Both the position numbers and the translations under genes were made by a program. Below, one piece after another: positions 9,824-26,094 of a DNA stretch of 64,000 bases (position 1 is its first letter; the number at the start of each line of letters is the position of its first letter). The DNA comes from Archangium sp. Its GTDB lineage: Bacteria; Myxococcota; Myxococcia; Myxococcales; Myxococcaceae. A model generated the notes under the pieces. The model did not search any database. It saw only the letters and a list, made by a program, of their open reading frames with translations, and had not been told where the DNA came from. The stretch is taken from the NCBI GenBank assembly GCA_030681645.1, contig JAUXRX010000025.1, forward strand, positions 186,001 to 250,000, in the 5' to 3' direction.

Positions 9824-10387
9824 TCATACCTCGAGCACTTCCTTCTCCTTCTTGGCCACGACGTCGTCGATCTGCGCGATGCCGGCGTCGGTCTCTTTCT
9901 GCACCTTCTCGGTGGAGCGCTTGCTGTCGTCCTCGGTGATGACCTTGTCTTTCAGCAGCACCTTGAGCTTCTCGTTCGCGTCGCGGCGGTCGTTGCGAAT
10001 GGCGACCTTGTGCTCTTCGCCGGTCGCCTTCACCTGCTTGGCGATCTCCTTGCGGCGCTGCTCGGTCAGCGGCGGAATCGGCAGGCGGATGATCTCGCCG
10101 TCGTTCTGCGGCGTGAGGCCCAGGTTGGCCTCGAGGAGCGCCTTCTCGATGTCCTTCAAGATGCCCTTGTCCCAGGGCTTCACGGTGATCAGCCGCGGCT
10201 CGGGCACGGCGACAGCCGCGCACTGGGCCAGCGGGGTGGGCGTGCCGTAGTAGCTGACGCGCACGCCATCGAGCATCGCGGCGTTCGCGCGGCCGGTGCG
10301 GATCTTCGTCATCGACAACTTGAGCGCCTCGATCGAGCGCTTGATCTGCTCGCCGAGCGCCTTCACCGCATCATCATGGGCCGCCAT
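9824..10387 (-). CDS. frr: Ribosome recycling factor
   Basis: A 187-residue protein that, with EF-G, splits post-termination ribosomes. It has the family's coiled helical domain (IEALKLSMTKIRTGRANAAMLDGV) and conserved VSYYGTPTPL, KPWDKGILKDIEKALLEANLGLTPQNDGEIIRL (split here: PWDKGILKDIEKALL, LGLTPQNDGEIIRLP) and RRKEIAKQVKATGEEHKVAIRN. Length is standard. The ATG at 10387 follows GAGGAG. It lies 34 bases after pyrH, as in the conserved rpsB-tsf-pyrH-frr order, and is followed at once by the receiver/GGDEF-like gene. Confidence 0.97.
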   Translation of the reverse strand: MAAHDDAVKALGEQIKRSIEALKLSMTKIRTGRANAAMLDGVRVSYYGTPTPLAQCAAVAVPEPRLITVKPWDKGILKDIEKALLEANLGLTPQNDGEIIRLPIPPLTEQRRKEIAKQVKATGEEHKVAIRNDRRDANEKLKVLLKDKVITEDDSKRSTEKVQKETDAGIAQIDDVVAKKEKEVLEV

Positions 10388-10421: not shown

Positions 10422-11171
10422 TCAGGCCATCACCGTCTCGGACGTGCCGACCAGGGTGCCGATGTCGCCGGGAGACAGCACCGCCCGCTGGATGTTGCCG
10501 CGGGTGGTCATGTCGAACACGACGATGGGGAGCTTGTTGTCCATGCACAGCGAGATGGCGGTGCTGTCCATCACGTTGAGCTGCTTCTTGAGCACGTCCA
10601 TGTACGTGACCGTGCGGTAGCGGCGCGCGTTCTTGTCCTTGCGCGGATCGCTGTCGTAGACGCCGTCGACCTTGGTCGCCTTGAGGATCACCTCGGCGTT
10701 GATCTCCATGGCGCGCAGCGAGGCCGCGGTGTCGGTGGTGAAGTACGGGTTGCCGGTGCCGGCGGCGAAGATGACGATGCGGCCCTTTTCCAGGTGCCGC
10801 ACCGCGCGCCGGCGGATGTAGGGCTCGGCGATCTGCTCCATCTTGATGGCAGAGAGCACCCGGGTGCTGCCGTTGAGCTTCTCGAGCGAGTCCTGCAGCG
10901 CCAGCGAGTTGATGCAGGTGGCGAGCATGCCCATGTAGTCGGCGCTCGCGCGGTCCATGCCCGTGGTGGCGCCCTGAACCCCGCGGAAGATGTTGCCGCC
11001 GCCGATGACGATGGCCACCTCGACGCCCGCGGCGCGCAGCTCCATCACCTCTTCAGCGATGCGCGAGAGCGTGCCTGCGTGGATGCCATACGTCTGGTCA
11101 CCCATCAGTGCTTCGCCCGACAGCTTCAGGAGGATCCGCTTGTAGCCGCCCGTCTTCGCTGGGGTGCCCAT
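10422..11171 (-). CDS. pyrH: UMP kinase
   Basis: A 249-residue hexameric kinase that phosphorylates UMP to UDP, essential for pyrimidine nucleotides. Motifs of the bacterial PyrH/aspartokinase fold are visible: [15 protein letters not shown] at the start, [16 protein letters not shown] (phosphate-binding), [20 protein letters not shown], and [20 protein letters not shown]. The ATG at 11171 gives the standard N terminus; a TTG at 11192 would add seven odd residues. It is the first host gene downstream of the RHS cassette and is separated from its usual partner tsf by that cassette, so its expression depends on read-through or on a promoter inside the cassette. Confidence 0.97.
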
Positions 11172-11245
11172 GACGGGGTGGAGGCTTACCAAATCGGGAT
11201 GGAGGCTGACGTGAAAGTTCGGAAGGCGGCCCCCTCGCGGATTAC

Positions 11246-12391
11246 CTACTGCAGGCAGTATTCGACGAAGCGGGTGGCGCCGCCGTCGGTCCTCGAACCG
11301 ACGATCAGGTTTCCTGACGCTGAGCCGCCATACAACGGAGGATAGTCCTCGGAGACGAACAGCCGCGCCAGCCTCCGCGGGGCCGCACCGTGCACGAGGG
11401 CCCAGACATTGACGTAGCCGTCCGCCTCGGCGGCCGCATCCCTGACGAGGAAGACGTCATCCAGGTCTGGAACTGCACCAATGAGCACCCAGCCCGCATC
11501 GTTCGACTCGACAGCGGCGTGGCCGCTTCCCCCGGCGGCATCGGTAATCCGCATGAGCTGCGTCGGGTCGGAGCCGAGGCAGACGAGATCAATCGAATCG
11601 CTCCGAGCGAACCGACAGTATTGAACCGAGGCGGTGATCGGGACCCCGCGCAGCTGAGACCCGACAAACAAGGCCAACCCCTGCTGAGGATTCCATTGGG
11701 TCAGGTATGCCGGCCCATCAGGGGTTGCCCGCGCGTCGACGCAGGAGTTGAAAGGGGCTGGCGTAGTCGTCACGCCGCCGTCGGCGCCGAGCTTCACGAG
11801 AGTGGCGGTCCTGCCGGAATCACCCAAACACACGGAGGCCTCATGCTCGGTGGAAGCGAGGCGCCCCTGAGCAAAGTCTCCAGGAAAGCTCGCCAGCAGG
11901 CGGCTGAGGCCTCGGGTTTCGAAGGTCGCGCCGGGAAAGTCGACAGACCTCAGTTCCGTCGGCCGCCCGGGTGTGGACCGCACGTAGAAGTAGCGAACCG
12001 CGTCAGGCCGAAGCCAGAAACCGACGAAGCCGAAGGAGGAGCCCGGCGGATGCACTTCCATCGGGCCGGTCGTGACGACTTCGGCCGTCAGGTCAGGCAC
12101 GAGCGCGTTGAACCGCATCAGCCAGACACCGGCACTCGTTCGCGGCATCGGTCCCGAAGACAAGTAATGACTGAAGAGGTTCGCCTCGCCGACGACGCGA
12201 GCGCACGGAGCCTGGGCAACCGGCTCCAGGCATCCCATGATGAGGATGCCAATCGCGAACAAACACCAGCATTGACGGCGGTAGACGTCGCGAGGAGTGG
12301 CATTCTTGAGACAGCGTGCTGGGCCGTTCACTCTCGCGCCTTCAACTCCTGCCGCTTCTTCCCTGCCAGCCAATCTCCAGTCCTTGATCAT
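11246..12391 (-). CDS. Hypothetical lipoprotein of the RHS cassette
   Basis: A 381-residue product with a long basic N region and a hydrophobic stretch [14 protein letters not shown], which looks like a lipobox ending at Cys54. The rest is beta-rich (for example [38 protein letters not shown]), perhaps a propeller-like fold, with scattered cysteines; no known family is recognised. The ATG at 12391 overlaps the previous stop as ATGA and has GGAGGGAG in front, so it is translated by coupling. GC looks lower than the flanking genes. It is the last gene of the inserted cassette before pyrH and may protect or anchor something related to the RHS protein; that is inference only. Confidence 0.7.
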
Positions 12392-12747
12392 GCTCCCTCC
12401 GCGAGTTTCTGCTTGACGGAGGCCAGCCAAGATCGCGCGGCGTCAGAAACTGAAGCTGCGTCAAAGGGAAGGGCGACGTGGACCAATCTCCGCAAGTCGA
12501 TCAGGCCTACTCGGATTGCCTCCCACTCAGCCGCCGAGCCCTCTATTCGAGCCAATTCGGGCAGGCACTTCTCGAGGCTATCGAGCTGCATGAGAAGTTC
12601 TGCGTGCGCCACCGGGTCGCCTAGTCGCTGTCGCCACTCAACGAAAGCCTCTGGGTTGGCTACAACGGCAATGAGGTTCATTCCGTTCATCAACGCTGAC
12701 GCAATGAACGAGGCGCGTTCCACAGCCGACAACCACTCACCTGACAT
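12388..12747 (-). CDS. Small protein directly downstream of RHS, candidate immunity protein
   Basis: A 119-residue, mainly helical and probably cytoplasmic protein (MSGEWLSAVERASFIASALM, then AHAELLMQLDSLEKCLPELA and IRVGLIDLRRLVHVALPFDA). No known family is recognised. The ATG at 12747 lies inside the last codons of the RHS gene (11-base overlap) and is preceded by AAGG with six-base spacing; longer upstream frames would run through the RHS gene and are less likely. A small gene coupled to the 3' end of an RHS toxin gene is the usual place and size for a cognate immunity protein, hence the suggestion. Function is not shown. Confidence 0.65.
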   Translation of the reverse strand: MSGEWLSAVERASFIASALMNGMNLIAVVANPEAFVEWRQRLGDPVAHAELLMQLDSLEKCLPELARIEGSAAEWEAIRVGLIDLRRLVHVALPFDAASVSDAARSWLASVKQKLAEGA

Positions 12748-15700
12748 CACACACCTTGAACTGAAGGCCACCAATGACGTGCATGACAAAAGCAGCACTT
12801 CCGTCAGCGCAAACATACGTACAGAAGAGCTTAAACAGCACAACAGGACTGCTGCAACCAAGGCACGAACCCCTGCCGCACTCCACGAGAGTGCACCGAC
12901 ACCCCGCACCACCACACAGGATGGTCGATGCGCACCCCATGGTAACGCAAGTCCAGAAATCCCTCACTGGGGGTGCTTCACCCGAGGGATCAACATGCTT
13001 GGCCGGACTACTGTATGCATATGCGTAAGCAGGCATAGGCATTCCAGTTCTCGGTGTCTGCCATACGCTTTCGGCCCTCTGCAGCATCGGCTCGCCTGAG
13101 AAATACCGGCCGGTCGCGGGCTCGTAGTGCCGGTTCCAGTTGTAATAGGGCCCCTGCGCGAGAATCAGCCCAGAGAGCGCGTCCTCGTACTGCCCGGGGA
13201 AGCGCAGCGGCTGCTCGAGGTGCGCGCCGTCGCCATCGACGTCCGTCTCGAGCCGCTCCACGTCGCCGAACGGCCGGTAGTCTGCGCGCCACACCGTCAC
13301 GCCCAGCTCGTTCGTCAGCCGAACCGGCGTGCCCAGTCTGTCGTTGTGGAAGTAGAAGATGTCGCCTTGGAGTTCACCGATTCCAGGGGCTGGCGGAGGC
13401 TCTGCCTGCGGGCCTTGCCCGTCACAACCCACCAACGTCAACACCAGCGCCGCCAGCGCCCCGCGCCCGTTGCGCCTGCGCAGCAGCACTGCCAGCAACA
13501 CGAGCGCCGCGAGCGAGCCAGACAGCCCACCACCTGACGAGGTGCAACCCAGCGGCGTGGTGGGGCTGCGCAGCGCCTTCCCCGGCCTCAGCGCCACCAC
13601 CGTCAGCGGCTCGCCGTCCAGGTAGACGTACGCGCGCTCGACTTCGCCGGCCTTCGACACCTCCGCGAGCAACTCGCCCGACGCGCCGCGGAGTTCCCAC
13701 GTCTCCTTGCCCGCCACGTTCGCGTACACGCGCCGGTTGGCCTCGTCGTAGCGGAAGGTGGCCATGGTGGCCCTCGCCGCGTCTTCACACGGCGGCGTGG
13801 TGGACGACACCTGCGCGCCGCTGCGCACCACCGTCTCCACCTGCACCAGCCGCTGCCGCGCGTCGTAGCGGTAGCACATGGTGTTGTGGATGCGCGGCGT
13901 CGAGAGCGGCTCCGCGGGGCCCTGAGCCAGGACGAAGGCGGGAATCTCCACCGTCACCGAGGTGACGGCCCCGTTCGCGTCGTGCGTGTACCGCCACGTG
14001 GGGTCGTTCTCCACGGCCTGCCGCACGTTCGCCTTCTCGGCGAGCCCCGCCAGCGTGTCGAGCAAGTCCAAGTCCACTGGGCCGAAGTCTACTCCTGATG
14101 CGCGCCGCGCGAGGTAGGCCGCCATCGTCGTCGCGAAGTCCACCCCGCCTCGCCTCGTCCCGGCCAGCACCCCCAGCAGCGACGGCGTGGGCACGCTGTA
14201 CTTCTCCATCCACGCACGGAGTTGCTCCAGCACCGCGAGGAGCCGGTTGTGTGCATCCGCCGCGCCGAGGGTGGGCGCGTCTCTTACGAGGCGCTTCGCT
14301 TCGCGCGCCACCGCCTTCCACTCCGCGTCGAGGCGGGCCAGCTCCCTCGGGCTCCTCGTCGCGCAGAAGGGCAGCCCTCCATCCAGCGCGACACCCGCGT
14401 CGGCCTGGCCACCACTTCCGCTGCCGCCGCGTCCGCTCCCTCCGCTTCCGGCGCCGCCCCGCCCACTGCCTCCTTTCCCGCGATGCCCACCCCCACGTCC
14501 GCTGCCGCCATGCCCGCGTCCGCGGTCGTCATCGTCTTCGGCTTCGTCGTCATCATCATCGCTGGTTCCGCGTGGCAGCCCACCATCGACGGCGACGCAC
14601 AGCCCGCCGACGGGCGGGTCGATGACGGCGCGCAGCAAGTCGTTGGCGGGCACGTCCCCACGGCCACCGGGCGCGCTGCGCAAGTCGAACACGGACACGT
14701 ACTGCTTCGTGCCGTTGCGCACCTTCAGCAGCCGGTTGCCCACCTCGTCGTAGGAATACGTCTCCGAGAAGATCGCGGCCGTCGCAGACCCCGTGATGGC
14801 CGCGCTCGTGAGGCGGTGCTCCTCGTCGTAGCCGTACAGTCGGCTGCGGGCCACGTCTCCGCTCTCGGTGGCCAGCCTCACGTCGCCCGTCGGCTTCAAC
14901 TCGTAGGCGAGGTTGACGGGTCCACCGCGCACGTCGGTGCGCCGGCCGAGCAGGTCCTCCCCGAAGGTGCTGGCCACCCCGTTGCCGCGCGTGAGGCTGC
15001 GCACCCCGCCGCCGAAGGGGTAGTGCGTGACGCCGCTCGCCAGCGTCACGCCTCCGAAGCGCACCTCGCTCAGCGTCTCATCGAGGCCCTTGTCCAGCTC
15101 CAGCACCGGCGGGCGACTCGCGCCCGTCTGCCGCGGGTACTCCAGCGAGGCCAGCGCCCCACCGGGGTGGTACGTGCGCGCGAGCGGCAGCGTCGTGGCC
15201 AGGCCGCTCAGCGTGGACTGCTCGCTCTGCAGCCGCCCCGCGCCATCCCAGGTGAGGCTCCTCGCGCCGCCCGGGAAGCTGACCGAGCTGAGCCGCCCCT
15301 TAGCGTGACTGCCGCTGTCGTAGCCGTACGTGACGAGCGGCGTGTCGGAGACGATGAAGAAGGTCTCCGGCTGGCACACCGGCGGGGATCCCGGCGCGCC
15401 GGGGATGCAGCTGCCCGGGATCGAGCCGTACACCGTGTGGAATTCCCCGGTGGGCCGGCGCAGCGCGTCGTACGTGTAGCGGAGCTCAGCGTTGGCCCGC
15501 GCGTGGCTCTCCGTCTTCATGAAAGTCAGCGCCCCGTCGGCGGCGTAGCCGTAGCGGGTGGTGCCGCTGTTGGGCGTCGTCACCTCGAGCGTCTGGCCGA
15601 AGTCGTCGAAGAAGTAGCGGGTGGGGTTGCCGTTGGCGTCGATGACTTCCGCCAGGTTGTCCATCACGTCGTAGCCGTACTGGGTGAAGGGCGGCGCGGG

Positions 15701-18637
15701 CTGCCCGCCCACGCGCCGCAGCGTCCTGCGCATCCGGCCGAAGCCGTCGTACTCGAAGGCGCTCACCCGCCCGCCCTCGTCGGTCGACTGCGTCAGCACG
15801 CCGTGGTGGTACTCGAAGCTCTTCCACACGCTGGAGTCGAGGCCGTACTCGCGCGTCACCCGGTGCGCTTCGTCGTAGTCGCGCTGCGCCTGCCTCGTGA
15901 GGGCACCGCTCGCGTCATACGTCTGCTCGAGCAGCACGTTGCCGCCGAGGTCGAAGGTGCGGTGCTGGCGCTGCAGCACGGCCGCTCCGAGGGCGACGGG
16001 CCCGCGCCACGTCACGTCTTCCAGCCGCCCGAAGGCGTCGTAGCTGGAGTGGATGGTGACGAGCGACGGCAGCGTCACCTTGCTCGGCTTGTTCCCCGCC
16101 GCGTATTCGGTGCGCGTCACCGCGCCGTCGGGGCCCATCACCATCGTCACACGGCCCTGGAGGTCGAACTCGTACGCCGTCACCTCGTTGTTGGCGTTGA
16201 CGATGCGCGTGGGCCGGCCGGTGAAGTGGTAGCGCTCGAACGTCGTCGTGAGGGCGAGCAGGCCCTCGCCGCGCGTCGTCGCCCTGAGCAGCCCCGCACG
16301 CAGTTCGTCCGTGTCGTCCGCCGGCCAGTACGCGTACGTCACGGGCACGCCGTCAGGCCCGTCGCTGCGAATCAGCCGTCCGAGGCCGTCGTACCTGAAG
16401 TGCGTCACCCTGAAGCCATCAACGACTCGGCATAGGAAGCGCGTGGGCGCCTCGTTGGGAATGGTGGGGCTGCCGGCGCGGGGCTCATCGACGCCCTCTC
16501 GGCACTGATGCGCAGGGTCGTCATCGTCGTAGTCTGAGACGGAGACCTTCACGCCCGAGTTGCCGGGCTGCGTGGTGAGGGTAGGCCTGCGCACCAGCGG
16601 GTGCTGGTACGCGAAGGTGAGGACGCGCTCGGGGGAGACGCCCCACACGCCGGCCTGCTCGTCGCGCTGTCGCTCGCCGGTGGGCCGGCCGAAGCGGTAC
16701 GGGTCCAGCACGCCGCTGCCGAAGGTGAAGAGTGAGGTCGTCAGTCCCTGTCGCAGTTGGGCGATGACAGGCACGACGTTGTCGAGCGGGTGCGTGTCCC
16801 AGACACGCGCGACGCTGCTGCCGCAGCCGCACGTCTCGCCTACGCTCTGCACGCGGTTGAACTGCGTGTTGACTTCGCGTGTGTGGCTCACTGTCACGGC
16901 TGGAGAGAACGCGCTGCGCACACTGACGGAGAGCATCCTCGTCGGCTCGCTCTGCGGCGTGAAGGTGAAGCTCAGCGACTCGGTCGCAGACTCCGAGGTC
17001 GTCGCCAGCACGCCCAGACCCGAGACTCGCTGGTACTGGTGGCGCTCCACCGTCTTGCCAGCTTCATCGATGACTTCTGCCAGGCGCATCGGGCCCGTCT
17101 CCACGGCGACGTACCGGAAATGGAACAGGGTGCGCATCCCCGCTGAGTGGCAGGCGTCGCTCGCCCCTGGGAGAGGAGCTTCGGGCGCGCAGATGTCCGT
17201 GAGGTGGCCGGCGCCATCCAGCAGCACCCGGGCGACCGTGGTTTCGACGGAGCCCGCCGTGGCCACCAGGTCGGTGCGCGTCGCCGAGTAGCGGTGGAGC
17301 GCGACGCTCCTTGGTCCCTGGCTCAGCCCCTTGCGGCTCGGAGTCGTCGTGGGCGCGCCTGGCGCAGGGAAGAAATACCGCTGCTCGTTCCCCGCGAGGT
17401 CTCGCAACCCGGCGAAGGCGCCCGACGAAGAGAAGAGCGCCGTGCTGCCGTCCTCGAAGACGACGCGCGGCGCGACCGTCTGGCTTCCGGGGCAGGGGGA
17501 CTGAGGGCAAAGCTCAATGCCGCCGCTCGTCGCGAGGTAGAAGCCGAGGTTGGCGCCGCCCAGCGATCGCGTGAAGAGCGTCGCGTCGGGCAAGCTGCCA
17601 CCCTCAAGGGCCGCTGTGGCCGGAAGCGGAAACTGCGAAGCGATGCCCACGTCGCTCCAGTACATCGCCTTCGCTGGGCCGGTGGTGACTCGCTGCTCGG
17701 TGTTGAGCGTCCACCCGATGCCGAGCTCGCCCTGGAGCAGGTTGCGGCTGTTGTAGGTGATGGCCAGGCGAAGCGGCGTGCCCGCCGGCGTCGCCAGCGA
17801 CACCAACTCGAGCGGACCGAAGGACATGTTGCCCGTCGTCATGCTGACAGGCTGGCCCGCTACGTCGACGCATAAGGGTCCGCCACGGGGACCACTAGCT
17901 GGGCCGCCGCCGCGACCACCTCTCGGAAAATCCGGCTCGGTGCAATCGTTGTCGACGGTGCCGTCGCAGTCGTTGTCGACTCCATCGCAGACTTCCGCCG
18001 CGCGGATCTTCCGGCCCACACAGTTGATGTCGCCGTTTGGCGAACAGGTCGGCTGTCCACGCACACACACTTCGGGGGCGAGTGGGCACCAAGGGTCGGC
18101 AGGAGGGTTGTTGGGCACTCCGTCGCAGTCGAGGTCCAGTCCTTCGCAGGTCTCGGAGGTCTTTGAGACGCTGCAAGCGCCCCACTCGGAGCCGATCGGT
18201 ACCTTCGCCCCATTCACCATTGGGAGGCAGGTCTGCGTGCCCCTTCCGCACGCACCTAACTCAGGGCAAGGACGCGTCGCACCCGGCGTGCAGGGCCAGG
18301 CCGCGCACCCAGAACATGTTGAACTCACGGGCGCAGAGTTATCGCAGAAGGCTTCGCTGCAAGTTCCCGTGCTCGGGCCGCCGCACTGGCTGAGGCAGCT
18401 CCCGGCAATCTTCACACCGCTGCAGGTGTAGCCGCAGACCTCAGCAAGATTGATACTCCCGGGCTGTCCCGGCGCCGACTGCCTGTCGATGCATCTGCTT
18501 GTCGAACCGGTGCATAGCTGCGCGAACGCGGTGGTGGACGTCGTCGCACAGACGCACCAGACCATCAGTACAGCTCGGAACGACGAACAAGCGACCCTCG
18601 AGCAACGACCAACGACCCCCGTCCGCGCCTGTGTCAA
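12737..18637 (-). CDS. Giant RHS-repeat protein, possible polymorphic toxin
   Basis: A 1966-residue protein. The N terminus has a signal-like stretch (AVLMVWCVCATTSTTAFA) and a cysteine-rich region with MopE-type metal-binding motifs (CDGVDNDCDGTVDNDC). Then come YD/RHS repeats from about residue 270 to 1690, such as YDAFGRLEDVTWRG, YEFDLQGRVTMVMGPDG and YDEVGNRLLKVRNG. An acidic then Gly-rich low-complexity insert lies at about 1359-1416. At 1696-1737 there is an internal MYXO-CTERM-like segment joined to a lipobox. The RHS core follows (FHNDRLGTPVRLTNE, RFPGQYEDALSGL, YEPATGRYF, VDPSGE), then an 80-residue cysteine-rich tip. The TTG at 18637 is chosen because GAGG precedes it; the frame is open to 18694. 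RHS shells usually encapsulate a C-terminal toxin. Confidence 0.9.
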   Translation of the reverse strand: MTQARTGVVGRCSRVACSSFRAVLMVWCVCATTSTTAFAQLCTGSTSRCIDRQSAPGQPGSINLAEVCGYTCSGVKIAGSCLSQCGGPSTGTCSEAFCDNSAPVSSTCSGCAAWPCTPGATRPCPELGACGRGTQTCLPMVNGAKVPIGSEWGACSVSKTSETCEGLDLDCDGVPNNPPADPWCPLAPEVCVRGQPTCSPNGDINCVGRKIRAAEVCDGVDNDCDGTVDNDCTEPDFPRGGRGGGPASGPRGGPLCVDVAGQPVSMTTGNMSFGPLELVSLATPAGTPLRLAITYNSRNLLQGELGIGWTLNTEQRVTTGPAKAMYWSDVGIASQFPLPATAALEGGSLPDATLFTRSLGGANLGFYLATSGGIELCPQSPCPGSQTVAPRVVFEDGSTALFSSSGAFAGLRDLAGNEQRYFFPAPGAPTTTPSRKGLSQGPRSVALHRYSATRTDLVATAGSVETTVARVLLDGAGHLTDICAPEAPLPGASDACHSAGMRTLFHFRYVAVETGPMRLAEVIDEAGKTVERHQYQRVSGLGVLATTSESATESLSFTFTPQSEPTRMLSVSVRSAFSPAVTVSHTREVNTQFNRVQSVGETCGCGSSVARVWDTHPLDNVVPVIAQLRQGLTTSLFTFGSGVLDPYRFGRPTGERQRDEQAGVWGVSPERVLTFAYQHPLVRRPTLTTQPGNSGVKVSVSDYDDDDPAHQCREGVDEPRAGSPTIPNEAPTRFLCRVVDGFRVTHFRYDGLGRLIRSDGPDGVPVTYAYWPADDTDELRAGLLRATTRGEGLLALTTTFERYHFTGRPTRIVNANNEVTAYEFDLQGRVTMVMGPDGAVTRTEYAAGNKPSKVTLPSLVTIHSSYDAFGRLEDVTWRGPVALGAAVLQRQHRTFDLGGNVLLEQTYDASGALTRQAQRDYDEAHRVTREYGLDSSVWKSFEYHHGVLTQSTDEGGRVSAFEYDGFGRMRRTLRRVGGQPAPPFTQYGYDVMDNLAEVIDANGNPTRYFFDDFGQTLEVTTPNSGTTRYGYAADGALTFMKTESHARANAELRYTYDALRRPTGEFHTVYGSIPGSCIPGAPGSPPVCQPETFFIVSDTPLVTYGYDSGSHAKGRLSSVSFPGGARSLTWDGAGRLQSEQSTLSGLATTLPLARTYHPGGALASLEYPRQTGASRPPVLELDKGLDETLSEVRFGGVTLASGVTHYPFGGGVRSLTRGNGVASTFGEDLLGRRTDVRGGPVNLAYELKPTGDVRLATESGDVARSRLYGYDEEHRLTSAAITGSATAAIFSETYSYDEVGNRLLKVRNGTKQYVSVFDLRSAPGGRGDVPANDLLRAVIDPPVGGLCVAVDGGLPRGTSDDDDDEAEDDDDRGRGHGGSGRGGGHRGKGGSGRGGAGSGGSGRGGSGSGGQADAGVALDGGLPFCATRSPRELARLDAEWKAVAREAKRLVRDAPTLGAADAHNRLLAVLEQLRAWMEKYSVPTPSLLGVLAGTRRGGVDFATTMAAYLARRASGVDFGPVDLDLLDTLAGLAEKANVRQAVENDPTWRYTHDANGAVTSVTVEIPAFVLAQGPAEPLSTPRIHNTMCYRYDARQRLVQVETVVRSGAQVSSTTPPCEDAARATMATFRYDEANRRVYANVAGKETWELRGASGELLAEVSKAGEVERAYVYLDGEPLTVVALRPGKALRSPTTPLGCTSSGGGLSGSLAALVLLAVLLRRRNGRGALAALVLTLVGCDGQGPQAEPPPAPGIGELQGDIFYFHNDRLGTPVRLTNELGVTVWRADYRPFGDVERLETDVDGDGAHLEQPLRFPGQYEDALSGLILAQGPYYNWNRHYEPATGRYFSGEPMLQRAESVWQTPRTGMPMPAYAYAYSSPAKHVDPSGEAPPVRDFWTCVTMGCASTILCGGAGCRCTLVECGRGSCLGCSSPVVLFKLFCTYVCADGSAAFVMHVIGGLQFKVCDVR
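13426..13552 (-). other. Internal MYXO-CTERM-like segment fused to a lipoprotein-type signal
   Basis: Within the RHS frame, residues 1696-1737 read LGCTSSGGGLSG, a hydrophobic run (SLAALVLLAVLL), RRRNGRG, a second hydrophobic run (ALAALVLTLVGC) and DGQ. The first half has the shape of the myxobacterial C-terminal sorting tag (Cys-Ser-Gly, membrane span, Arg cluster). The second half looks like the start of a lipoprotein. Both are in one open frame with no stop between them. Confidence 0.7.
14390..14570 (-). repeat. Low-complexity acidic/glycine-rich insert in RHS
   Basis: The encoded residues go from an Asp/Glu run (DDDDDEAEDDDD) to short Gly-Ser-Arg repeats (GHGGSGRGGGHRGKGG, GSGGSGRGGSGSGG). 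At DNA level this is a run of imperfect GGC/GGA-rich tandem units. It interrupts the RHS repeats and probably forms a flexible surface loop. Confidence 0.75.
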
Positions 18638-18732
18638 TCGCCCCCCTCGGTTGATGGACGAGCAGCATCGCCCACCAGCCCAAGAGTCAATCAAGTGCCC
18701 AATGTGCGCGCGCGACCACAGCGCGATCTGAA

Positions 18733-19794
18733 TCAGGCCTTGCCGGTGCCCAGCGTCGCCGCGACGTCAGCCGCGAGGTCGCCCTTCACCTTCTCGATGC
18801 CCTCGCCCACTTCGATGCGGGCCACGCGGCCCACGGTGAGCGTGGTGCCGAGCTTCTTACCGGCGTCGGCGATGACGTCCTTGATCTTCTGCTTGTCGTC
18901 CTTCACCCAGAGCTGATCGACGAGGCAGTTGTTCTCGTAGAACTTCTCGATCTTGCCCGCGATGATCTTGTCCCACATCGCCTCGGGCTTGGTGACCTGC
19001 TCGCGCTTGATGATCTGCGTGAGGGGCACCTTCTCGAGCTTGCCGCTGATCTCGACCATCAGCTTCTCGGCGTCTTCCGAGCGGAGCACGCCGGTGCGGG
19101 CCGGGCCGTCCTTGATGGTGATCTTCCAGGTGTTGGCCAGCTCGTACTTGTAGCTGGCCTTCTCGAGCTCGAGCACGTCTGCGGGCACCTGCTCGCGGCT
19201 GACGTACGCGGGCTTCATCGCGGCCGACTGCATCGCCAGCTCGGTGGCCAGCGCCTTCGCGTCGGCGTGGTTGCTGCCGAGCACCTCGACCAGCGCCGCG
19301 ATGCGGTTGTTCGAGTGCAGGTAGCTGCCCAGCACGCCGTTGCCCTCGACCTGGAAGCGGGCGAAGCGGCGCACGGTGAGGTTCTCGCCGATGGTGGCGA
19401 TCTTCTCGGTGATCAGCTCCTTCACCGGCTTGCCGCTCTCGTGAGGCTGCGCGTGCAGGGCGTCGACGTCGCTGGGGTTGTGCTGCGCGACGTGCTTCAC
19501 CAGGTTCGCGGTGAGGGTGACGAAGTCGGCGTTGCGCGCCACGAAGTCGGTCTCGGAGTTGACCTCGACGATGGCGCCGAGCTTCCCGTCGTCCGACATC
19601 ATCAGGCCCACCAGGCCCTCGGCGGCGACGCGCGCGCCCTTCTTGGCGGCAGAGGCGACGCCCTTCTTGCGCAGCCATTCCTCGGCCTTCACGAAGTCGC
19701 CCGCCGACTCGGTCAGCGCCTTCTTGCAGTCCATCATGCCCGCGCCGGTCTTCTCGCGGAGTTCCTTCACCATCGCAGCGCTGATCTCAGCCAT
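18733..19794 (-). CDS. tsf: Elongation factor Ts
   Basis: A 353-residue nucleotide-exchange factor for EF-Tu. The N-terminal UBA-like domain (ELREKTGAGMMDCKKALTES) and the core motif VEVNSETDFVARNADF are exact for the family, as are MKPAYVSREQVPADV and ARIEVGEGIEKVKGD near the end. It is longer than the 283 residues of E. coli EF-Ts; most of the excess is a stretch of about 60 residues between VPADV (near 205) and GKIEKFYEN (near 275). The ATG at 19794 is preceded by AAGGAG. It follows rpsB as expected, but the RHS gene, not pyrH, comes next. Confidence 0.96.
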   Translation of the reverse strand: MAEISAAMVKELREKTGAGMMDCKKALTESAGDFVKAEEWLRKKGVASAAKKGARVAAEGLVGLMMSDDGKLGAIVEVNSETDFVARNADFVTLTANLVKHVAQHNPSDVDALHAQPHESGKPVKELITEKIATIGENLTVRRFARFQVEGNGVLGSYLHSNNRIAALVEVLGSNHADAKALATELAMQSAAMKPAYVSREQVPADVLELEKASYKYELANTWKITIKDGPARTGVLRSEDAEKLMVEISGKLEKVPLTQIIKREQVTKPEAMWDKIIAGKIEKFYENNCLVDQLWVKDDKQKIKDVIADAGKKLGTTLTVGRVARIEVGEGIEKVKGDLAADVAATLGTGKA

Positions 19795-19922: not shown

Positions 19923-20882
19923 TTACTCGGCCTTCGCAGCCTCGGCGGCGGCAGGCGCCTCGGTGACGGCAGCGGCGACAGCCTCGCCCTCGGTGGCGGC
20001 AGGCTCGACGGGCTCGAGCGACGTTCCGCCCTTGTGCTCGACGACCGGACCACGACCCTCGCGGCGCGGCGCGCGGCGGCGGGAATCATCACCCGCACCA
20101 CTGCGGCCCTCGTGACGGCGGCGCTCTTCCTGCGCGTCGCGATCGGCGGCGCCAGAAGCGCGGTACCGCGCGGCACCTTCGATGGCGGCGTCGGCGATCT
20201 TGCCCGTGAAGAGCTTGATCGAGCGGATCGCGTCGTCGTTGCCCGGGATCACGTAGTCGATGCCTTCGGGATCGCAGTTGGTGTCGACCAGGCCGATCAC
20301 CGGAATGCCGAGGCGGTTGGCCTCGTGCACGGCGAGCGCTTCCTTCTTGGGGTCGATCACGAAGACCGCGCCGGGGAGGCGGCTGGTGTTCTTGATGCCG
20401 CCCAGGTTCTTCTCGAGCTTCTCGCGCTCACGCTCGAGGCCCGCGACTTCCTTCTTGGGCAGGCGGGCGTAGGTGCCGTCTTCCGACATCGTCTCGATCG
20501 CCTTGAGGCGGTCGATGCCCTGCTTGATGGTCTTGAAGTTGGTGAGCGTGCCGCCCAGCCACCGGTTGGTCACGTGGTACTGCGCCGACCGCGACGCCTC
20601 TTCACGCACCACGTCCTGCGCCTGCTTCTTGGTGCCGACGAAGAGCACCGAGCCACCGCGCGCGGTGACGTCAGAGACGAAGCGCAGGGCCGCACGGGCC
20701 AGCACGACGGTCTTCTGGAGGTCGATGATGTAGATGCCGTTGCGGGCGCCAAAGATGTACGGCTTCATCTTCGGGTTCCAGCGCTTGGTCTGGTGACCGA
20801 AGTGCACTCCGGCCTCCAGCATCTGGCGCATCGTGATGCCGCCGGCGGGGGCCATCTGCTGCTGCTGCTCAGTCTCGCTCAT
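19923..20882 (-). CDS. rpsB: Ribosomal protein S2 with acidic C-terminal extension
   Basis: A 319-residue protein. Residues from [20 protein letters not shown] to about 250 form the canonical S2 core ([93 protein letters not shown]). The last 70 or so residues are a charged Arg-rich then Ala/Glu-rich tail absent from E. coli S2. The ATG at 20882 ([15 protein letters not shown]) is chosen; AAGGA lies ten bases upstream. First gene of the rpsB-tsf operon, with a 190-base leader. Confidence 0.97.
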
Positions 20883-22070: not shown

Positions 22071-25000
22071 TCAATTGCACGTGAGCGTGCTCGAGAACGT
22101 CCCCACCGGCGTCGACCCGCTGCCCGAATAGAACAGCTTCCCGAACGATGCCCAGTGGGTGAAGCCGCTCTTGTCGCCGGGCCGGCACGCAGGGTCCGCC
22201 GCGCACGCGCCTGACGTGGCTGACAGCTCGACCTCGGAGCCGCCCGGCGTGCGGTTGCCGAGCAGATCGAGCGTGCGCGTCATCACCTGCTTCTTGAACG
22301 TCGACGGGTCCGCCACGTAGCGGATCGCCGAGAGCCAGAGCCCGGTGGCCGACGCGCTGGTGCGCGGCCGCGCGATCGAGTCGACCCCGTTCTGCGTGCC
22401 GTATTCGAAGTACGCGAAGTTGTAGAACGGGTCGTTGGTGAGCCAGAACTGCAGGTCGGCCCGCGGCGTGGTCGCCCCCGAGTCCTTCATCACGTAGGCG
22501 ATCAGGTACTGGTCCGCGCTCGCCGAGTCCTTGAAATAGGTCAGGTCGGGCTCGGTGAGCACGCGCGGCGCGGTCTCGGTGTCGGCCACGGTCTCGGCGT
22601 CCTTCACCGTGCCGTTCTCGTTGACCCGGAAGAAGTTGAGGCTGGTCGAGGTGCTCAGGTACGCGATGGCGATGCGCCGCTGCGTCGCGGTCGACACGCA
22701 CGTCTGGGAAGACAGCCAGTCCACGTGCGCCGAGTCTGCGCCCACGCCCGCCACCGCCGTCGCTGAAGGCGAGATGGTGGTCGAGGTGAGCACCGTCGAC
22801 GCGCAGCCCGGGGCGCGCAGCTCCCAGGCGCCCGCGATGTTGCACGCCTCGACCTGCGCCATCTTGATGCCCGTGCCGTTCTCTCTCCACACCAGCACCA
22901 CGCGGCGCCCGTTGCCCCGCACCACGCGCAGCGAGTCGAGCGTCTGGCTGGTCGACCCCACGAACTGCGTGTACCGGTACGTGCGCTGGGTGCCGTTCGA
23001 GTCGGCGTAGTAGAGGTCGATCTCCGAGTTGTTGTACGACCAGATGCCCGCCGCGATGAAGCCGTCGCCCGCCTGGGCGAAGTCCACGTCGGAGTACGAG
23101 AGCGAGGTGATCGATGTACTCCCGCCCGCGGGCAGGCCCGCCGTATCGAGCCGCTGGAAGGTGATGCCGCTGGCGCCCACGCCCATCAGCAGCGCGCCGC
23201 CGGCGAGCGCATCGGTGCCCGTGCCGTTGGCCCCGCCCGCGCAGCTGGCGGCCGAGTAGTAATAGGGGCGCACCTCGAGGTCCTGGAACGCCGTGGTGCT
23301 CACGTTGGTGGTGCTGGTGATCACCGGCTCATCCACGATGCCGTCGCAGTCGTTGTCCGTGCCGTCGCACGCCGCGGCCGTCGGGCTGCCCGGCGTCGCG
23401 TTGCAGACCACCGCGGTGCCGCCGCCGTTGCACACCTGCACGCCGCTGCGCGCGCACGCGCCCACGCCCGAGGTGCACGCGGTGCCCAGGCCCACGTAGC
23501 CCTCGTCGGTGCTCCCGTTGCAGTTGTCGTCGAGGCCGTTGCAGGTCTCCGCACCCGGCGCGACGTTGCGCACGCAGGTGACGGTGGCCGCCTGGCAGGT
23601 GAGCGTGCCGGGCGCGCAGACGCCCGACTGGCCGGTGCTGCACGCGCCGCCGCCGCCGGGGTTGCCCTCGTCGATGCCCGCTGCACAGTTGTCATCGACG
23701 CCGTTGCACAGCTCAGACGCGGTGGGCTTGATGGCCGAGTTGCCGTCGTTGCAGTCGGTGTTGTTGGTGACACGGCCCGCGACCGGTCCGCACGAGACGA
23801 TCGCCGACGAGGTCGTCGCGCCGAAGCCGTCGGTGTCGCCGTCGGTGTAGTAGCTCTGCGTGGGCAGCCCTTCGTCGATGCCGCCGGTGCAGTTGTCGTT
23901 GATGCCGTTGCAGACCTCGGCCACGCCCGGGCGGATGTTGAGGTTGGCGTCGTTGCAGTCGAGGTTGTTGGTCACCTTCCCGCTCACCGCCGCGCAGGAC
24001 GTCTGGGCCAGCGCGCCCGTCGCGCCGTAGCCGTCTCCGTCGACGTCCGGGTAGTAGCTGAGCACCGAGAGGCCCTCGTCGATGGCCACGTCACAGTCGT
24101 CGTCGATGCTGTTGCAGATCTCGGTGGCGGTGGGCTTCACCGCGGCGTTGAGATCGTTGCAGTCGCTGCTGTTGGTGACGCGCCCGGCGATCGCGCTGCA
24201 CGAAGCCTGGGCCACCGAGCCCGACGCGCCGAAGCCATCGCCGTCGCTGTCGACGTAGTAGTTCTGCGTCGCCACGCCGTTGTCGATGAGGGTGTCGCAG
24301 TTGTCGTCGACGCCGTTGCACATCTCGGCCGCGCCCGGCAGCACGGTGGCGTTGGCGTCGTTGCAGTCGTCGTTCGAGGTGACGCGCCCGGCGACCGGAC
24401 CACACGAGGCCTGCGCCACCGAGCCCAGCCGCCCGCGCCCGTCGGAGTCGGCGTCAGGGTAGTAGTTCTGCGTGGGCAGCCCTTCGTCGATGCCGCCAGC
24501 GCAGTTGTCGTCGACCCCATTGCAGGTCTCGGCCCGCGACGGGTTCACCGCGGCGTTCGCGTCGTTGCAGTCGGTGCGGTTGGTGACGCGCCCGGCGATG
24601 GGCGTACAGCTGGACTGGGCCGTGGCGGCGGCCGAGCCGAAGGTGTCACCGTCTCCATCGGGGTAATAGTTGACGAAGGTGAGGCCCTCGTCGGTCTGGC
24701 CGTCGCAGTCGTCGTCGACCGCGTTGCAGGTCTCGGGCGCCATCGGCTTCACCGCCGGGTTGGCGTCGTTGCAGTCCTGGCTGTTGGTGACCTTGCCCGA
24801 CACCGGCGCGCAGGCTGACTGCGGCGTGGCCGTCGAGGCGCCGAAGCCGTCTCCGTCACCGTCGGTGTAGTACTGCGCGAAGGTCAGGCCGTTGTCGGTG
24901 CCACCCGCGCAGTCGTCGTCGACGCCGTTGCAGAGCTCGGTGGCGGTCGGCCGCACCTGCGCCGAGGCGTCGTTGCAGTCGGTGGTGTTGGTCACCTTGC

Positions 25001-25970
25001 CCGGCACGGCGATGCAGGACGACTGGGCCATCGAGCCGGTGGCGCCGAAGCCGTCGCCGTCCATGTCGGGGTAGTACGAGATGAAGGTGAGCCCTTCGTC
25101 GATCTGCGTGTCGCAGTCGTCATCGGCGCCGTTGCACGTCTCGGGCGCGCCCGGCTTCACCGTGGCGATGGCGTCGTTGCAGTCACTGTCGTTGTCGACC
25201 TTGCCCGGCATCGGCGCGCAGCTGCTCTCGGACTGCGCGGACGCGTCGCCGAAGCCATCACCATCGACGTCGGGGTAGTAGTTGGTGAAGGCGATGCCGT
25301 TGTCCATCTGGCCGTCGCAGTTGTCGTCGACCTTGTTGCAGAGCTCGACCGCGCCCGGCTTGATGGTCGGGTTGTTGTCGTTGCAGTCGCCCGGGTTGCT
25401 CACCCGGCCCTGCACGGACGTCTGGCACGAGTTCATCGGCGCCGAGCTGGCCGCGCCGAAGCCGTCGCCGTCAGCGTCCGTGTAGAAGTCCTGGAAGGGG
25501 AGGCCGTTGTCGCGCGTGCCGTCGCAGTCTTCGTCGACGCCGTTGCAGATCTCGGCCTGGCCCGGGCGGATCGCGGGATCCTGATCGTTGCAGTCGCCTG
25601 ACTGCGTGACGCTGCCCATCGGAGGGCCCTTGCAGCCTTCGCCGGTCCGCGTGTCGCCGACGCCGTCGCCGTCTTCGTCGCGGTAGTACGCGACCACGGG
25701 GAGCCCTTCGTCGATCTGCTGGTTGCAGTTGTCGTCGACGCCGTTACAGACCTCGAGCGCCCCCGGGTACGCGACGGGATCGCGATCGTTGCAGTCGACC
25801 ACCGCTTCCAGCGCGCAGTCGCCGGTGCCGGAAAAGCCGTCGCCGTCGTTGTCGAGGCAGACGCTGGTGGGCAAGGGCGTCGAGCCCGCGTCGACGACGG
25901 GAGAAAGAGGCGTCTCTTTTCCACACGCGCTGAGCGCGAGGGCAATGCAGACCGCGAGACTGCGAGTCAT
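22071..25970 (-). CDS. Large MopE-repeat (putative metal-binding) lipoprotein
   Basis: A 1299-residue exported protein. The signal MTRSLAVCIALALSACG has lipobox LSAC. Residues about 45-850 contain eleven modules of roughly 67 residues, each with a DCND box, a P-G-x-x-E-x-C-N-G-x-D-D-(N/D)-C box and a YYxDxDGDGFG acidic loop, followed by two shorter modules, thirteen C-N-G-x-D-D-C boxes in all. This is the copper-binding MopE/PF11617 style; the DGDG loops also suit calcium. The last 400 residues are beta-rich, without repeats, and probably form a propeller-like domain. The ATG at 25970 is chosen because the lipoprotein signal begins there. Confidence 0.85.
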   Translation of the reverse strand: MTRSLAVCIALALSACGKETPLSPVVDAGSTPLPTSVCLDNDGDGFSGTGDCALEAVVDCNDRDPVAYPGALEVCNGVDDNCNQQIDEGLPVVAYYRDEDGDGVGDTRTGEGCKGPPMGSVTQSGDCNDQDPAIRPGQAEICNGVDEDCDGTRDNGLPFQDFYTDADGDGFGAASSAPMNSCQTSVQGRVSNPGDCNDNNPTIKPGAVELCNKVDDNCDGQMDNGIAFTNYYPDVDGDGFGDASAQSESSCAPMPGKVDNDSDCNDAIATVKPGAPETCNGADDDCDTQIDEGLTFISYYPDMDGDGFGATGSMAQSSCIAVPGKVTNTTDCNDASAQVRPTATELCNGVDDDCAGGTDNGLTFAQYYTDGDGDGFGASTATPQSACAPVSGKVTNSQDCNDANPAVKPMAPETCNAVDDDCDGQTDEGLTFVNYYPDGDGDTFGSAAATAQSSCTPIAGRVTNRTDCNDANAAVNPSRAETCNGVDDNCAGGIDEGLPTQNYYPDADSDGRGRLGSVAQASCGPVAGRVTSNDDCNDANATVLPGAAEMCNGVDDNCDTLIDNGVATQNYYVDSDGDGFGASGSVAQASCSAIAGRVTNSSDCNDLNAAVKPTATEICNSIDDDCDVAIDEGLSVLSYYPDVDGDGYGATGALAQTSCAAVSGKVTNNLDCNDANLNIRPGVAEVCNGINDNCTGGIDEGLPTQSYYTDGDTDGFGATTSSAIVSCGPVAGRVTNNTDCNDGNSAIKPTASELCNGVDDNCAAGIDEGNPGGGGACSTGQSGVCAPGTLTCQAATVTCVRNVAPGAETCNGLDDNCNGSTDEGYVGLGTACTSGVGACARSGVQVCNGGGTAVVCNATPGSPTAAACDGTDNDCDGIVDEPVITSTTNVSTTAFQDLEVRPYYYSAASCAGGANGTGTDALAGGALLMGVGASGITFQRLDTAGLPAGGSTSITSLSYSDVDFAQAGDGFIAAGIWSYNNSEIDLYYADSNGTQRTYRYTQFVGSTSQTLDSLRVVRGNGRRVVLVWRENGTGIKMAQVEACNIAGAWELRAPGCASTVLTSTTISPSATAVAGVGADSAHVDWLSSQTCVSTATQRRIAIAYLSTSTSLNFFRVNENGTVKDAETVADTETAPRVLTEPDLTYFKDSASADQYLIAYVMKDSGATTPRADLQFWLTNDPFYNFAYFEYGTQNGVDSIARPRTSASATGLWLSAIRYVADPSTFKKQVMTRTLDLLGNRTPGGSEVELSATSGACAADPACRPGDKSGFTHWASFGKLFYSGSGSTPVGTFSSTLTCN
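23338..25860 (-). repeat. Tandem coding repeats of the MopE-like gene
   Basis: About eleven diverged units of around 200 bp, each encoding DCND...CNGxDDxC...DGDGFG. The periodic GTCGTTGCAGTC and GTCGTCGAC strings on the plus strand mark them. Recombination between units could change repeat number. Confidence 0.85.
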
Positions 25971-26094
25971 CGGGAATCCTTGGGAGTTGCCACCCTGTAC
26001 CCGATGGCGGGAGGTGTGGGCAAACCCGCGACCCGGGTCTGTGTCACCCCGTTGAATCACCAGTCAACACGGGGTGTTGCGATACAAGGCCCGG

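Follow-up and report, generated by a model that had tools for sequence, protein, structure and literature searches.

Large Rhs proteins with a signal peptide are a known kin-discrimination class of the myxobacteria, and the M. xanthus proteins Rhs4 and Rhs5, which act in contact-dependent kin killing, are ca 4000 residues long and encoded on Mx-alpha prophages (PMC10433427). In Rhs-CT/RhsI modules, a variable tip begins past a DPxGL motif and a small gene lies directly downstream (PMC3150448), while bacterial Teneurin-like proteins, which are enriched in Myxococcota, combine a YD shell with a C-terminal toxin and a downstream immunity gene (PMC13018210). Internal MYXO-CTERM motifs are reported to be rare; an example is MXAN_5598, adjoining ftsA-ftsZ, where an adhesin region is joined to an OmpA-type barrel (PMC11980579).

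The Rhs protein described here shares with Rhs4 and Rhs5 a length above 1500 residues, a signal peptide, YD/RHS repeats and a polymorphic C-terminus, and by analogy it may share their contact-dependent killing. However, it has only ca 1966 residues, is encoded at a seam between core genes with no phage gene seen adjacent, and contains an internal MYXO-CTERM. It resembles the Rhs-CT/RhsI modules in its tip and downstream small gene, but the motif is DPSGE and neither tip nor small gene has detectable relatives. The YD shell, the presumed C-terminal toxin and the candidate immunity gene downstream recall the Teneurin-like proteins, although their defining FN-plug and NHL domains were not detected in a Pfam sequence scan. 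With MXAN_5598 it has in common an internal MYXO-CTERM in a large, presumed surface protein at an essential gene cluster; here, in contrast, the signal parts the shell from the core and tip. An Rhs cassette at a permissive site is ordinary in kind, and the locus has one unusual architectural feature.

The analysed stretch of 64 kb, called the window below, belongs to a draft assembly of 10.2 Mb in 66 contigs with an estimated contamination of 6.66%. On its minus strand follow rpsB (19923-20882; NCBIfam TIGR01011, 339 bits), tsf (18733-19794; TIGR00116, 291 bits), the Rhs gene (12737-18637), a 119-aa gene (12388-12747), a 381-aa lipoprotein-like gene with the lipobox IMGC (11246-12391), pyrH (10422-11171; TIGR02075, 335 bits) and frr (9824-10387; TIGR00496, 221 bits). 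The gene order and these identities confirm that an RHS cassette stands between tsf and pyrH, as the first-pass annotation had it. The block measures 7.4 kb and consists of three overlapping genes on one strand. The Rhs reading frame runs uninterrupted from a TTG codon at 18637, with the Shine-Dalgarno sequence GAGGGGGG at 18641-18648 ahead of it, to its TGA stop at 12737. Within the 3' end of the Rhs gene, at 12747, begins the 119-aa gene (an overlap of 11 nt), and the lipoprotein-like gene starts at 12391 in an ATGA overlap with the 119-aa gene. Because the reading frames overlap, the three genes look translationally coupled.

We consider it probable that a polymorphic-toxin cassette entered this lineage and settled at the boundary between rpsB-tsf and pyrH-frr, where it displaced the terminator of tsf and left the promoter element of pyrH in place. 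The insertion, the gene coupling and the domain make-up are observed directly, and the boundary nature of the site is given by the sequence features discussed below.

From its TTG start, the Rhs protein comprises a probable Sec signal peptide, MTQARTGVVGRCSRVACSSFRAVLMVWCVCATTSTTAFA (18521-18637, assigned by inspection), MopE-like Cys motifs, DUF6531, YD/RHS repeats, an Rhs-associated core and the tip. It matches PF05593 (E 3.6e-30), PF03527 (6.5e-12), PF20148 (9.3e-10) and PF11617 (1.5e-6) in Pfam, and TIGR01643 and TIGR03696 above their NCBIfam cut-offs. The core (12980-13279, residues 1806-1905, TIGR03696 46.8 bits) has DPSG at its end. The variable tip that follows (12740-12979), 80 residues long and Cys-rich, is the presumed toxin, as judged from its composition and from comparison with the one homologue found (in genome G015); the two proteins are conserved through DPxG and their tips are unlike. 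The Rhs protein does not fit the type of a T6SS PAAR-Rhs effector: no PAAR domain was found in it by a Pfam scan (E 0.1), and the N-terminus is signal-peptide-like instead. Between the YD repeats and the core there is an Asp- and Gly-rich low-complexity stretch with a helical-looking region (13895-14569), which is found in the G015 homologue too. Elsewhere in the genome, a contig end (G000:C46:1-2000, L119) carries repeated fragments of an Rhs core with different tips, resembling an array of orphan tips, and a similar tip array is seen in G002:C582 (L121).

The host ORFs of the window have a GC3 of 0.91 ± 0.04. The Rhs core is at 0.89, while the N-terminal part of the Rhs gene is at 0.73, the tip at 0.55, the 119-aa gene at 0.66 and the lipoprotein gene at 0.75, the last two also under the host value. 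The earlier observation that the block ends are lower in GC than the Rhs core is thus borne out by the GC3 profile. There is a sharp break near 13,050, just ahead of the tip, where GC3 falls from 0.88 to 0.54. A frameshifted tip was considered and rejected, since codon periodicity is no better in the alternative frames, and a foreign tip is therefore preferred. The tip and the immunity candidate are of foreign composition.

The tip, the 119-aa protein and the lipoprotein gave no Pfam or PHROG match. AlphaFold models from single sequences are all-helical but of low confidence for the 119-aa protein (pLDDT 64) and unusable for the 381-aa lipoprotein (pLDDT 33). By its layout, the 119-aa gene is a candidate for, and probably encodes, the immunity protein, and we infer by analogy that the pair forms a contact-delivered toxin with its immunity protein. 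The cassette would accordingly comprise a surface Rhs toxin, its cognate immunity candidate and an accessory lipoprotein. The Rhs protein would be exported via its signal peptide and displayed on the cell surface, the variable tip would be delivered to neighbouring cells upon contact, and the overlapping 119-aa protein would shield the producer. Toxicity, immunity, surface display and co-transcription with tsf are in this way all put forward by inference.

Points against the cassette explanation are that the tip is short (80 aa) and matches no known toxin, that no match to an immunity family was obtained with the 119-aa protein, and that the termini of the block bear no signature of entry. The shortness of the tip, its many cysteines and its dissimilarity to known toxins would also suit an Rhs protein that is mainly a surface adhesin or a social-motility factor, with a degenerate or structural tip. 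An Rhs gene of M. xanthus influences motility and predation (PMC10433427), and MYXO-CTERM is a mark of surface proteins. However, a low-GC variable tip that runs straight into a small overlapping gene is the arrangement classically seen in toxin and immunity pairs (PMC3150448), and we regard the adhesin alternative as unlikely.

We now consider the MYXO-CTERM itself (13472-13549; GCTSS, a TM helix and RRR), which occupies residues 1716-1741, counted from the TTG at 18694. The excised segment scores 25 bits against TIGR03382 (cut-off 15.85) and 22.9 bits against TIGR03901 (cut-off 20). It is not at the extreme C-terminus: more than 240 residues lie beyond it, the Rhs core among them. After the sequence RRRNGRG comes a second hydrophobic segment (13424-13462, assigned by inspection) that ends in a lipobox-like LVGC, and then the core. 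In the G015 homologue the arrangement is alike, with 19.2 and 20.1 bits for the two models, again above the cut-offs, and with ASTC as the counterpart of LVGC. When 28 distinct core regions of Rhs proteins were examined across the analysed loci, a strong hydrophobic segment at that place was seen in only four, namely the window Rhs, the G015 homologue and two from a metagenome contig. In the latter contig (L131, JAPLJI010000176.1, 11253-16142), tandem ORFs with Rhs ends each follow a TM hairpin with a basic loop, a layout similar to the internal MYXO-CTERM region of the window Rhs.

The genome encodes the myxosortase MrtX (NF040593, 318 bits against a cut-off of 180; G000:C66), which, with MYXO-CTERM and the phylum of the relatives, points to a myxobacterium. 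Since the signal is conserved in the G015 homologue and a myxosortase is present, processing into two lipid-anchored parts is suggested. A speculative and, in our estimate, rather improbable elaboration is that MYXO-CTERM and lipobox form a double site for myxosortase and signal peptidase II, at which the precursor would be cut into a shell and a core-and-tip part, each with a lipid anchor of its own. Such a two-part surface toxin could move by outer-membrane exchange, with its expression tied to growth via read-through from rpsB-tsf. A reading on a par with processing is that the hairpin aids the passage of the tip across membranes. If the protein is processed, the internal sorting signal would tie the surface pathway of myxosortase to polymorphic toxins, and such a link was found in none of the literature searched.

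Next, the insertion can be compared with the empty site. Here tsf and pyrH are 7.54 kb apart, whereas only 78-82 bp separate them in G004, the nearest relative (91% identity in Tsf); other short gaps are 88 bp (G005), 112 bp (G018) and 108 bp (G022). In the alignment with G004, homology ends at TTCAGAT, just past the tsf stop, and restarts at TTTGGTAAGCC (from 11193), ahead of pyrH. The block has thereby replaced ca 50 bp of the site, terminator hairpin included, and the pyrH −10-like element TAAGCC (11183-11188), which corresponds to that of the relatives, is kept. A relative of the Rhs protein, searched for with pieces of 257 and 370 aa, occurs in two of 195 Myxococcota genomes, counting the present one; these searches use one genome per species, so that strains can be missed. 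The other one, in G015, is 44% identical over the full length and does not lie at the tsf-pyrH seam. A search of 49 other genomes gave no relative of the 119-aa gene or of the 381-aa lipoprotein. A scan of contigs with patterns drawn from the Rhs alignment, which were poor ones, returned mostly weak MopE matches and no close homologue, and plasmid blastn and a scan of viral contigs gave no match.

The block is a lineage-specific acquisition, probably later than the split from the nearest sampled relative. The comparison of the junction, in which close relatives do not have the block in common, thus supports the first-pass annotation in its view of a toxin-like Rhs cassette in host orientation that was acquired in the present lineage. 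Its further suggestion of a mobile unit found no such backing: the block ends share no target-site duplication of at least 9 nt, they have no terminal inverted repeats and no end-to-end inverted pair, and no recombinase was seen in the block or in the neighbouring proteins that were scanned. The loss of ca 50 bp would fit illegitimate recombination or a homology-assisted replacement.

We turn now to the site itself. Other bacteria commonly have tsf-pyrH-frr as a cluster (PMC2837039), so the earlier expectation of one operon was reasonable in general. It held that the mobile cassette lies inside an rpsB-tsf-pyrH-frr operon, could drive pyrH and frr by read-through, and would be entrenched because its loss would disturb essential genes. 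In the relatives, however, the spacer after tsf contains a hairpin with a T-rich tract, for instance a 19-bp stem and TTTTTTT in G005, and the fold z-scores range from −1.7 to −6.8 (G005 −6.8, G004 −4.5, G001 −3.9). Upstream of pyrH, a −10-like element (TASAAG, TASAAC or TAAG(G/C/T)C, with S being G or C) is found in 33 of 37 distinct regions, versus 4% of shuffles. It mostly lies 7-26 nt ahead of the start (63 nt in one case), and in 19 of the 33 it is accompanied by TTG at a spacing of 17-18 nt. We take this element to resemble the −10 of M. xanthus vegA.

The arrangement of the two gene pairs points in the same direction. Five genomes (G050, G056, G061, G065 and G068) have rpsB-tsf on one strand and pyrH-frr on the other, and in G047, G052, G055 and further genomes the pairs occupy separate contigs. 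The pairs are 4.1 kb apart in G054 and close in G051 and G057; in the sister families they are often apart, and this holds for most families of the same order. As far as can be told with promoters and terminators called from sequence only, rpsB-tsf and pyrH-frr would be two transcription units in this clade. Since the insertion falls exactly at the seam of the two pairs, the gene order would be split without an operon being broken, and the description of a cassette inside a translation operon is not supported for this clade.

Some evidence is in favour of a joint transcript. All genes are on one strand, the tsf-Rhs spacer (18638-18732) has no terminator hairpin (fold z −1.09), and a sequence search gave no convincing terminator between the lipoprotein gene and pyrH, so that a long transcript is possible. 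Because the insertion replaced the terminator, read-through from tsf into the toxin cassette is plausible. On the other hand, the retained pyrH promoter-like element, the terminators at the relatives' seam, the pairs on opposite strands and the many other occupants of the seam described below all speak against the operon interpretation, which we judge to be quite unlikely. The related claim that the cassette would be hard to lose is not supported either: with the proximal promoter element of pyrH retained and a variety of occupants accepted at the seam, gene order by itself is no ground for expecting entrenchment.

Returning to the preferred reading of a cassette settled between two units, we note that new genes have repeatedly come to lie at the tsf-pyrH seam within this myxobacterial family. 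The gap exceeds 400 bp in ten other family genomes (G001, G002, G007, G010, G015, G028, G037, G039, G043 and G045) plus the present one, this being a count of genomes and not of tree-based independent events. The neighbouring gaps remain short in these genomes, with less than 400 bp for rpsB-tsf (within the family) and less than 90 bp for pyrH-frr. The occupants differ: G039 has a VTT-domain membrane protein, G045 a gene of the metallo-beta-lactamase fold together with a LysR regulator, G043 two genes in reverse orientation that resemble LemA and HtpX by a reading of their translations, and G002 two other genes. That the junction is an assembly chimera of misjoined repetitive Rhs genes, as a draft with 6.66% contamination and several other Rhs loci might invite, is highly improbable, given that the 119-aa gene, the lipoprotein and this form of Rhs are single-copy in the genome, that homology to the empty site of G004 extends on both flanks as far as the insertion, that other genomes have inserts at the same seam, and that the contig continues through host genes on either side.

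A broken gene order is thus not necessarily a broken operon, and the series of seams offers natural material on how genes enter between essential units. A gene of 70-80 aa is common to the tsf-pyrH gaps of G007 and G010 (L046, L052) and is possibly an older resident. Just upstream of rpsB, the gene at 22071-26060 encodes a giant protein that looks secreted and contains 13 metal-binding motifs of the MopE type; its position is kept in several relatives. Finally, the Tsf protein (18733-19794) has 353 residues versus 293 positions in the family model; the additional residues in its middle are shared with close relatives only, and most other family genomes match just the ends of the protein.
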